A stretch of DNA of 34,295 nt from positions 1 to 34,295 of the forward strand of contig PWJQ01000059.1 in the NCBI GenBank assembly GCA_003560875.1, in the 5' to 3' direction. This stretch comes from Methanomassiliicoccaceae archaeon (lineage in GTDB: Archaea; Thermoplasmatota; Thermoplasmata; Methanomassiliicoccales; Methanomethylophilaceae). The translations under genes were made by a program, and so were the position numbers. Each line of letters starts with the position of its first letter. The first letter of the stretch is position 1. Below, piece by piece: positions 505 through 2,673 of the stretch. Below the pieces are notes generated by a model, which made no database searches, was not told where the DNA came from, and worked only from the letters and a program-made list of their open reading frames with translations.

Positions 505-1272
505 ATGGGACAGTCTGGTGAAGCGGACAGGTGGGACCGCTCGAGGCGGGTGGGATGGCTGGATGTCGATTCGGTCCTGAGATCCCACTGTCTGGTAGTC
601 GGCGCCGGTGCACTGGGCAACGAGACGGTGAAGAACCTCGTCCTGTCCGGAGTGGGGAAGGTGACGCTGGTGGACATGGACCATGTGGAGCTCAGCAACC
701 TCAACCGTTGTTTGTTCTTCAGTGACGTTGATGCTTCAGGCAGGGTCGCCAAGGCCGGAGTGGTCGCCCAGGGAGCCATGCGCCTGTCCCCGCATTGTGA
801 GATTCTGCCACTGGTATCGAGGATCGAGGATACGGACCTCGAGTGGGGAATGTTCGATGTGGTCTTCGGCTGTCTAGACAACATCAAGGCCCGCCTTCAT
901 CTGAATTCCTACAGCCGACACCACGGCATCCCCTATGTGGACGCCGGAACGGACGGCTCCCGGGGCAAGCTTCAAGTGGTACTCAGGGAGGGTCCCTGCC
1001 TACAATGCTCGATGAACCGTAGCCACTACCAGGTACTGGAAAGGAGGTTCAGTTGCACCGGGGAGGACTTCTCCTATTACGAACCGCCCATGGCTGCCGA
1101 GGTCACCACCACCGCCACCATGGCGGCCATGCAGGTGAAGGAGGGTTTGAAGATCATCAGCAACAAAGAGGACGGATGCATCCGGGATGTGATGTTCTAC
1201 GACGCCCTGAGGAATGAGACCTTGGTTTTGGAATTGGAGATCGACGAGGATTGTCCCAATCACGGGATGTAG
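505..1272 (+). CDS. E1-like ubiquitin-activating enzyme (ThiF/MoeB/UBA fold)
   Basis: Predicted to adenylate the C-terminal Gly of the adjacent ubiquitin-like protein with ATP and then carry it as a thioester. The 255-residue protein is one Rossmann adenylation domain. It has the nucleotide loop G33-A-G35-A-L-G38, an acidic residue at D57 ending the second strand, the ATP-site motif S64NLNR68, and GCLDN with the Mg-binding D125. A zinc pair C165-x-x-C168 is matched late by C250-x-x-H253. C184 in FSCTG sits where UBA-type E1s keep the catalytic cysteine. There is no second catalytic half-domain and no C-terminal ubiquitin-fold domain, so E2 recruitment must differ from eukaryotic E1. GTG at 502 directly precedes the ATG at 505 and is an equal start candidate. 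MoeB/ThiF alone would be the alternative call, but the linked Ubl, E2 and JAMM genes argue for E1 function. Confidence 0.9.
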   Translation: MGQSGEADRWDRSRRVGWLDVDSVLRSHCLVVGAGALGNETVKNLVLSGVGKVTLVDMDHVELSNLNRCLFFSDVDASGRVAKAGVVAQGAMRLSPHCEILPLVSRIEDTDLEWGMFDVVFGCLDNIKARLHLNSYSRHHGIPYVDAGTDGSRGKLQVVLREGPCLQCSMNRSHYQVLERRFSCTGEDFSYYEPPMAAEVTTTATMAAMQVKEGLKIISNKEDGCIRDVMFYDALRNETLVLELEIDEDCPNHGM

Positions 1273-1331
1273 TTTTCATGTAGCGACCACGTTAAATGCT
1301 TGTAGTATGGATTTGAGGACGGTGATAGGTT

Positions 1332-1571
1332 TTGACCATCGAAGTGACCATAAGGAATGCCGAGAACGGCTCCAATCTCAACATGGAGCTGGAGCCGCAC
1401 ACCACGATCGAGGATATAATAGAAGGAGCCGCCGAGTTCTGGAACAAGGAAGCGGGGGCCTATGTCCTGCGCCGGGGCAAGAAACTGCTCAAGGGCCAGT
1501 CTACCGTGATGGATGCCGGGTTGAAGAACGAGGATGTCCTCGAGCTCATCCCTGACCCTGAGGGTGGTTGA
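1332..1571 (+). CDS. Ubiquitin-like protein with exposed C-terminal Gly-Gly
   Basis: A 79-residue beta-grasp protein and the predicted conjugated modifier. It opens with a strand (MTIEVTIRN), a second strand (LNMELEPHTTIED), the central helix (about 25-39), the YVLRRGKKLL strand, and a last strand VLELIPDPEGG. The chain ends exactly at Gly78-Gly79, so no proteolytic maturation is needed. Lysines are K39, K50, K51, K54 and K65; K50 aligns with ubiquitin K48, and K65 falls within a residue of K63. The start is TTG at 1332, chosen because GGTGAT at 1321-1326, a perfect match to the 16S tail, lies five bases upstream. A gap of 59 bases separates it from the E1 gene; TTAAATGC in that gap might be a weak internal promoter. 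SAMP or Urm1/MoaD-type sulfur carriers are alternatives, but the neighbouring E2 supports conjugation. Confidence 0.88.
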   Translation: MTIEVTIRNAENGSNLNMELEPHTTIEDIIEGAAEFWNKEAGAYVLRRGKKLLKGQSTVMDAGLKNEDVLELIPDPEGG

Positions 1572-2089
1572 GGTTGCCTCTGCCCCCGGATATATTGGCG
1601 ACCCGCCTCCACAACGAGCTTGAGGCCTGCTCACGTTATCTGGGGGCCGTCCTCACGCCGGATGGCCCTTTGAACGAACTGCCGGTCTCGGTGGATGTGA
1701 AGATGAACAATGTCGTCGGACCCTCCATCCTGGGCGGTAGGGTGGTGAAGAGACGGAACCACCGGTTCTCGATGGTCATTGACCGCGAGTATCCTTTCGA
1801 GAAACCGAGGGTGCGATGGCGCACACCGGTGTTCCATCCCAACATCATGATGCCTGAGGACGGCGGCTTCGTCTGCATAAAGCAATTGGACGGTTGGACT
1901 TTCAACTCCACGTTGCTATCGTTCATAAAATCAATGGAATCGCTGCTGACCAACCCCAACCCCTCCAATCCCTTCGGGACGGACAGCTGCACCGCTGCGG
2001 CGGAGTACTTCAATTGCAACCGTATCGACCATGGACCTACCATCGTGAGGTCTAGACCGAGGATAGTGGAGAGATGCCAGCAAAGATAA
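1568..2089 (+). CDS. E2-like ubiquitin-conjugating enzyme (UBC fold)
   Basis: Predicted to accept the Ubl from the E1 as a thioester and pass it to a lysine. The 173-residue protein shows the UBC core in order: N-terminal helix (about 7-24), beta strands with the YPFEKPRVRW segment (75-84), the H90-P91-N92 motif that stabilises the oxyanion, and active-site C103 in GFVCIKQLDGW. The LL..PNPSNP turn (126-135) marks the crossover helix, and a helix around 138-148 follows. A basic tail of about 20 residues ends the chain. The TTG at 1568 overlaps the Ubl stop (TTGA), which implies translational coupling; a TTG at 1574 with GAGGGTGG in front is an alternative. The 16-base overlap with the JAMM gene confirms the operon. 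HPN, Cys and downstream Trp together make a paralogue without activity unlikely. Confidence 0.9.
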   Translation: MRLPLPPDILATRLHNELEACSRYLGAVLTPDGPLNELPVSVDVKMNNVVGPSILGGRVVKRRNHRFSMVIDREYPFEKPRVRWRTPVFHPNIMMPEDGGFVCIKQLDGWTFNSTLLSFIKSMESLLTNPNPSNPFGTDSCTAAAEYFNCNRIDHGPTIVRSRPRIVERCQQR

Positions 2090-2673
2090 CGTCCTGGAAT
2101 GAATCCCGTCCGCGGGAGAGTCCTCCGCCTACAGACGACAGGGTGTCCAACCACCGGTGGTTCAGCGAAAGGATGAACGCCCTTTACCACGAGAACCGCG
2201 ACTTCCTTCCTTTGTACGTGCAGCGTATCGCCGAGGAGAAGATGCGCAACCATGCCTTGGCAGGGATGAGACGCTCGCACGAGGTGATGGGGCTGATGAT
2301 GGGAGGACGTTTCGAATGGCAGGGCAGGGAGTATGCCATAACCCGTGACGTCGTCACCACGGAACTGGAGGCCAGCGAGTACCATGTCCGTTTCGACCAT
2401 GATTCCCTCGAGGGCCTGTTCGATTCACTGGATGATCTGGACTTCGAGTATTCCATCGTGGGATGGTACCATTCCCATCCTGGCATCGGCTGTTTCATGT
2501 CCGACACCGACATAAGCACTCAGGAGGGGGCTTTCAACATGCCCCACCACAGTGCGTTGGTCCTCGACCCGGTGCAGCGGGAGATGGAGGCTTACTGCCT
2601 CAAGGACGGCAGGGTGGAGGTCAGGCCGATGGGCATATACTGGGACCTGCACCAGGACCCGTACCGCGGTTAG
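2074..2673 (+). CDS. JAMM/MPN+ metalloprotease, Rpn11-like deubiquitinase
   Basis: Predicted zinc isopeptidase that removes the Ubl from targets. In 199 residues it has the complete JAMM signature: E70 in EVMGLMMGG, then H133-S-H135 followed by seven residues, S143 and D146 (HSHPGIGCFMSDTD). The WYHSHPG form is that of Rpn11 and AMSH rather than of bacterial RadC. The first 30 residues are Pro-rich and probably disordered. Since the linked Ubl already ends in Gly-Gly, deconjugation is more likely than precursor trimming. The ATG at 2074 lies inside the end of the E2 gene. The TAG stop overlaps by four bases the stop of the convergent gene. A role as a nucleotide-clearing JAB is unlikely given the context. 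Confidence 0.92.
   Translation: MPAKITSWNESRPRESPPPTDDRVSNHRWFSERMNALYHENRDFLPLYVQRIAEEKMRNHALAGMRRSHEVMGLMMGGRFEWQGREYAITRDVVTTELEASEYHVRFDHDSLEGLFDSLDDLDFEYSIVGWYHSHPGIGCFMSDTDISTQEGAFNMPHHSALVLDPVQREMEAYCLKDGRVEVRPMGIYWDLHQDPYRG

Follow-up and report, generated by a model that had tools for sequence, protein, structure and literature searches.

An E1–Ubl–E2–JAMM operon of Thermoplasmatota that probably encodes a ubiquitin-like conjugation pathway

Does a member of the Thermoplasmatota encode a pathway that attaches a ubiquitin-like protein to other proteins and removes it again? The question is raised by a stretch of 34,295 nucleotides (hereafter the window; contig PWJQ01000059.1, assembly GCA_003560875.1) from a Methanomassiliicoccaceae archaeon of the family Methanomethylophilaceae, related to methanogens of guts and sediments. 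Four genes on the + strand, near the left end of the contig, encode an activating enzyme-like protein (E1), a ubiquitin-like modifier (Ubl), a conjugating enzyme (E2) and an Rpn11-like JAMM metallopeptidase. The window is the entire contig 12 of a 1.05 Mb genome that is 81% complete. Work on archaeal ubiquitination has so far centred on Caldiarchaeum and Asgard archaea, mostly uncultured, whose ubiquitin systems have been described (PMC5654768, PMC6043591, PMC4327156). From the conservation of the catalytic residues and from their joint loss in relatives, we consider it probable that the operon encodes a reversible ubiquitin-like conjugation pathway.

Results

Four proteins with conserved active sites

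The E1-like protein (505..1272, 255 aa) consists of a single ThiF domain covering residues 20-251 (Pfam ThiF, 7.9e-46, above the curated cut-off). Family alignments were built from 19-23 diverse relatives (A2 for E1, A3 for the Ubl). In A2, the nucleotide-binding loop GAGALGNE (601..624) is nearly invariant. Residues D59, R68, K83 and D125, the CxxC...CxxH set and Cys184 (1054..1056) are invariant. Cys184, the candidate thioester cysteine, lies in the loop (F/Y/H)(S/T)C that follows the CxxC motif and is present in 125/125 strong operon E1 frames, 124 by pattern and one in the variant context FNC. The E1 profile matches MoeB, ThiF and UBA5 along nearly the full length (residues 7-256 for UBA5), and its best E-values are with UBA1 and UBA3, over residues 9-173. 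In Pfam, the 255 residues hold the one ThiF domain and neither a separate catalytic-Cys domain nor a C-terminal ubiquitin-fold domain (UFD). Near-complete relatives encode further E1-type proteins, so the operon E1 looks dedicated to this pathway.

The Ubl (1332..1571, 79 aa, TTG start) ends in PDPEGG without a tail. Its C-terminal Gly-Gly (1563..1568) is invariant in the Ubl alignments A3 and A6, and the whole end, PDP(E/Q)GG, is invariant in A3. Taken alone, the protein stays below the Pfam thresholds (Rad60-SLD 1.1e-3, ubiquitin 8e-3). A family profile of 23 relatives ranks ubiquitin first among solved structures (PDB). The AlphaFold model is a confident beta-grasp fold with a mean pLDDT (predicted local distance difference test) of 94.2, and Foldseek matches it to SUMO1, Hub1, Caldiarchaeum ubiquitin (CsUb) and ubiquitin.

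The E2 (1574..2089, alternative start 1568, 171 aa) matches Pfam UQ_con above the curated cut-off (1.9e-13) and UBE2E1 in phmmer (2.6e-11). Its HPN motif (1835..1843) and its catalytic Cys101 (1874..1876), which aligns with the active-site cysteine of UBE2E1, are invariant among relatives, as is the Trp that follows the cysteine. HPN and cysteine are found together in 154/154 E2 frames. The AlphaFold model has a pLDDT of 86, with a tail disordered from about residue 153. Foldseek assigns it to E2s with probability 1.00 and moderate TM-scores of ~0.6.

The JAMM peptidase (2074..2673, 199 aa) matches Pfam JAB above the curated cut-off (3.5e-13), yeast RPN11 (phmmer, 3.3e-13) and Rpn11 of C. subterraneum (2.9e-12). 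E70, H133-S-H135, S143 and D146 are present, and E70, H133, H135, S143 and D146 are invariant in the family alignment. The metal-site motif HSHPGIGCFMSDTD (2470..2511) is intact in 139/139 strong JAMM matches.

The original prediction, made from the DNA alone, had pointed out the candidate E1 cysteine, the Gly-Gly end, the HPN motif and cysteine of the E2, and the JAMM signature. All were found, and all are invariant in the family alignments. Of the Pfam families it had proposed as a check, ThiF, UQ_con and JAB were recovered above their curated cut-offs and the Ubl fell below. Structure prediction, carried out for the Ubl and the E2, bore out both folds. Interpretation as an E1-Ubl-E2-JAMM conjugation system finds support in the conserved catalytic residues, together with the co-loss described below. 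In the proposed proteomic search for GG-remnant lysines, trypsin would not work, the last Lys/Arg of the Ubl being 14 residues away from the C-terminus (NEDVLELIPDPEGG); with Glu-C, the GG would be left.

A widespread operon at one chromosomal place

The four genes lie in one direction and in the order claimed. Their last three were said to overlap; this is clear for E2 and JAMM (2074-2089), and the overlap of Ubl with E2 disappears with the E2 start at TTG 1574 that relatives indicate. E1 and Ubl are separated by 59 bases.

The E1-Ubl-E2-JAMM order is kept across the class, in dozens of genomes. At 80 loci inspected, Ubl, E2 and JAMM are adjacent in most, usually with the E1 directly upstream. 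At a few, the E1 is one gene or more away or outside the view; one to several genes separate it from Ubl-E2-JAMM at L087, L088-L090, L093 and L094. Chance occurrence of the motifs was ruled out by the family matches, by conservation and because the identical gene order recurs in dozens of genomes. Beside the operon lie SIS and TIM-barrel genes, a pair found at >50 other loci; the TIM-barrel gene is retained in 101/102 genomes of the family.

The presence of the E2 was scored with one genome per species; most of these are metagenome-assembled genomes (MAGs), many incomplete and some <70% complete. A UQ_con E2 was found in 56/102 genomes of Methanomethylophilaceae, spread over 13/14 genera. It occurs in 98/300 sampled genomes of the class (38/90 sampled genera) and in 83/390 sampled genomes of the phylum (52/155 sampled genera). 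A scan of GTDB genomes gave 80 named loci, all in Methanomassiliicoccales, other Thermoplasmata, or MAGs named Euryarchaeota or archaeon. The operon had been thought unexpected in Thermoplasmatota; on these counts the E2 is common there. A contaminating genome was likewise ruled out, because the operon adjoins archaeal L18e, L13, S9 and RpoN genes, relatives share the same neighbours, and all six genomes of the source genus have the E2.

Graded losses in relatives

Several relatives amount to natural knock-outs. E2-positive members of genus g7, as well as genome G044, retain the fourth gene in its place, but its metal-site motif is replaced, the HxH...SxxD site and the glutamate being gone. 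Wherever readable, the E1 and E2 cysteines of these dead-JAMM genomes are intact, and their Ubl ends exactly at GG in 7/7 readable cases. Where the JAMM is intact, 27/40 family genomes encode 1-10 residues after the GG (p = 0.0012 against the dead-JAMM genomes, uncorrected for relatedness). In Caldiarchaeum, CsRpn11 trims the tail of CsUb (PMC5654768, PMC6043591). A similar role of the JAMM as a tail-trimming enzyme would fit the observation that a dead JAMM goes with an untailed Ubl. In the source genus the tail is absent though the JAMM is intact, and deconjugation is therefore the more likely role there.

The losses go further in E2-less Methanomethylophilaceae. Seven such genomes were read at the place of the operon (L315-L321): the SIS and TIM-barrel flanks are present in 7/7 and the E2 is gone. 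E1, Ubl and JAMM persist as open frames that are non-catalytic wherever seen. The E1 cysteine motif is lost in G011, G017, G019 and G021, and the JAMM motif in G011, G012, G017, G019 and G021. The Gly-Gly end of the Ubl is lost in G019 (IPDPMSEESIW), G050 (IPDIGEITT) and G053 (IPDPEAYFTEMSL).

These graded losses serve as genetics in silico. Where the Ubl is encoded in its mature form, catalysis by the JAMM can be the first function to go; the E2, the E1 cysteine, the Gly-Gly end and the RING protein described below are lost together among close relatives. From this pattern, with the TIM-barrel neighbour retained, we conclude that these four are constrained together, as predicted for a conjugation pathway.

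A RING-like membrane protein as candidate E3

The system had been called complete. The operon lacks a ligase (E3): no RING match was found in it or in its 8-kb flanks at the 80 loci. A search with zf-RING_2 identified one RING-like protein of ~170-290 aa in most near-complete relatives; in the source genome its gene is on contig 41, at about 471-1166. The protein has a hydrophobic N-terminal helix (in 43/48 members), a RING-like domain and zinc ribbons. The domain follows the pattern CxxC-x(10-12)-CxC-x4-HxxC-x6-CPYC, in which CxxC-CxC-HxxC-CPYC is invariant. It keeps CxIC and CPYC, which are typical of E2-binding RINGs. Judged from these sequence features and from its distribution, this unlinked membrane protein is the best E3 candidate.

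Co-occurrence with the E2 was scored with a profile of the RING-like domain, and the claim is confined to the order. Among the 102 family genomes, 52 have both proteins, 44 neither, 4 the E2 only and 2 the RING-like protein only (Fisher 1.1e-21). An rpoB tree covering 70 of these genomes yielded 8 independent pairs, in which the two traits changed in the same direction 5.6 times on average and in the opposite direction 0 times (median sign-test p 0.031). In the rest of the order, 18/18 sampled E2-positive genomes have a RING match. A class-wide presence test with the same profile was dropped, since it also matches ~1500-aa proteins of E2-less genomes, whose C-terminal domain is similar. Such proteins occur in many Thermoplasmata, E2-less genomes included, and end in a domain of the RING-like type (KCAHCQGRVKSGFEIVTCRCGSSLHLTCAKRTGQCPVC; L200 and L202, genomes G126 and G155).

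In E2-positive families outside the order, a similar domain, followed by zinc ribbons, is found in soluble proteins of 320-360 aa (L197, L198, L204). The RING gene is usually distant from the operon, as in G014 (1.57 Mb vs 0.19 Mb). In genus g11 (G086, G087, G088) it lies ~9 kb from the E2 on the same contig, far closer than in other genera.

Discussion

A proposed pathway and its alternatives

In the pathway that we infer, from every catalytic step to the E3 role, the nature of the targets and a possible proteasomal end of tagged proteins, the E1 would adenylate the Ubl at its Gly-Gly end and bind it in thioester linkage through Cys184. From there the Ubl would move to Cys101 of the E2 and on to target amines, probably lysines. 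The single-pass membrane RING-like protein, as the likely E3, may aid this transfer; given its place in the membrane, some targets are probably found there too. The JAMM would trim the extra C-terminal residues found beyond the GG in many relatives and would probably also remove the tag. A proteasomal fate of tagged proteins is possible because PAN is encoded in the same genome.

Several observations weigh against this pathway or parts of it. The catalytic-Cys and UFD domains missing from the E1 are those that recruit the E2 in canonical E1s. Loop 7 of the E2 reads W-T-F-N and is without the canonical W-S-P-A. The RING-like domain scores under the Pfam zf-RING_2 cut-off in most members. It is undetected in four E2-positive genomes (two of g7, G089 and G095) and present without E2 in two; 3/6 of these discordant genomes are <75% complete. 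In reduced genomes, an association of gene losses can arise without direct interaction, and the co-occurrence statistics cover this one pair of genes.

It could be that the same conjugation pathway operates but that its E2 passes on the Ubl with no help from this E3. The RING-like zinc protein would then belong to another pathway that happened to be lost in the same host-adapted lineages. The low RING scores, the usual distance of the RING gene from the operon and the same type of domain at the end of the ~1500-aa proteins, also in E2-less Thermoplasmata, all speak for such an arrangement. We nevertheless judge it rather unlikely, as the co-occurrence in the family holds over several independent losses at least, is never reversed, and recurs in all 18 E2-positive genomes sampled elsewhere in the order.

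The E1 also invites comparison with sulfur carriers. Its match to MoeB and ThiF along nearly the whole length, and the position of its cysteine in the loop that holds the persulfide-forming cysteine of ThiF, would suit an enzyme that converts the Ubl to a thiocarboxylate used in the thiolation of tRNA or cofactors, the E2 being an accessory. The haloarchaeal SAMP/UbaA system shares a single-domain E1, a GG-ending Ubl and a JAMM with the present operon. It has no E2, whereas the E2 here keeps HPN and cysteine in every one of the 154 frames. The E1 misses the UbaA equivalog cut-off of NCBIfam (78.9 vs 450 bits), and the MoeB and ThiF ones also by far; the JAMM misses that of the desampylase (37.3 vs 130 bits). 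Moreover, the GG and the E1 cysteine are lost along with the E2, which would not be predicted for an E2-independent sulfur carrier, and genomes without the E2 still have other, separate proteins of the ThiF family. A role of this SAMP-like kind therefore seems quite improbable.

Bacterial E1-E2-Ubl-JAB operons act in defence, and PADLOC recognises the ThiF domain here with its E1-E2 models (6e-13). The gene content is indeed that of bacterial Bil/Bub operons and of the E1-E2 operons of cyclic oligonucleotide-based anti-phage signalling systems (CBASS). Yet PADLOC gives no match for the E2, which has an HPN-type active site, and only 0.005 for JAB. The operon keeps one stable place beside housekeeping genes across genera, rather than sitting in variable islands, and its conserved neighbours provide no defence context, including no effector or nucleotidyltransferase. 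A role in anti-phage defence, as for Bil or CBASS modules, is accordingly very unlikely, and conjugation with the RING-like protein as E3 is the reading that we retain.

Comparison with described systems

The system of Caldiarchaeum subterraneum comprises E1, E2, a RING E3, ubiquitin and Rpn11. It shares with the present one the operon logic, a UBC-fold E2 with HPN and cysteine, an Rpn11-like JAMM and a Ubl with GG, which has a short tail in many members; the Ubl model superimposes on CsUb with a TM-score of 0.88 at 22% identity. In contrast to the Caldiarchaeum and Asgard type, the E1 here is single-domain, without separate Cys domain or C-terminal UFD, and the operon has no small RING gene. 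The JAMM gene, unlike that of Caldiarchaeum, is co-directional and overlaps E2, and the Ubl in the window needs no trimming. With the UFM1 system (UBA5, UFC1), the operon shares a compact E1 whose cysteine lies within the adenylation domain; its E2 is of the UQ_con type and not UFC1, and its peptidase is a JAMM and not UfSP.

The list of parts is not new. A PSMD14/Rpn11 relative was named in Methanomassiliicoccus luminyensis by Fort et al. in 2015 (PMC4453063), and Fuchs et al. in 2018 defined a JAMM-3 group, nearer to Rpn11 than JAMM-1/2, with operons that contain Ub, E1 and E2 and no E3 (PMC6043591). The operon studied here probably belongs to the same group as these JAMM-3/Ub-E1-E2 operons and the M. 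luminyensis protein. 'Cluster III' of PMC5654768 may include some of these operons. The main texts of Fuchs et al. (PMC6043591) and Fort et al. (PMC4453063) do not describe the Thermoplasmatota operon, its distribution, an E3 candidate or the decay. In the open-access literature, subscription papers and supplements lying outside the scope, we found no description of the operon in Thermoplasmatota, of a RING-like partner or of a decay series. To our knowledge, the RING-like E3 candidate that co-occurs with the E2 and the natural knock-out series are new.

We tentatively go one step further. It is possible, if somewhat doubtful, that the ubiquitin-like system inherited by Thermoplasmatota is independent of the Asgard/Caldiarchaeum type and pairs a one-domain E1 with a membrane-anchored RING-like E3, and that in several lineages it has become a group of non-catalytic E1, Ubl and JAMM relatives, kept as intact genes and perhaps forming a structural complex. 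E2-based tagging with a MoeB-sized E1 bears on the order in which the parts of the ubiquitin system evolved. A related pathway spread widely over Thermoplasmatota, some orders of which have members in culture, makes conjugation testable in vivo in a non-Asgard archaeon. M. luminyensis, named in PMC4453063, is cultured, and its proteome has been sampled (PMC7613761).

Two other kinds of cluster were observed. A second, more eukaryote-like cassette (class family f20) was found in genomes G115 (L146:1863-7990) and G125 (L147:4972-10387). It contains a small Ubl-like open reading frame, a ThiF protein of 414-440 aa, an E2 (UQ_con 3e-24) and a JAMM of 340-401 aa; in G125 it adjoins a 694-aa protein with RING-like and RWD-like domains. 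A further cluster in G125 (L148:2519-8528) encodes a 229-aa Ubl-E2 fusion that joins ubiquitin and UQ_con domains, a ThiF protein of 322 aa extended at its N-terminus, and a JAMM protein carrying Ig-like domains.

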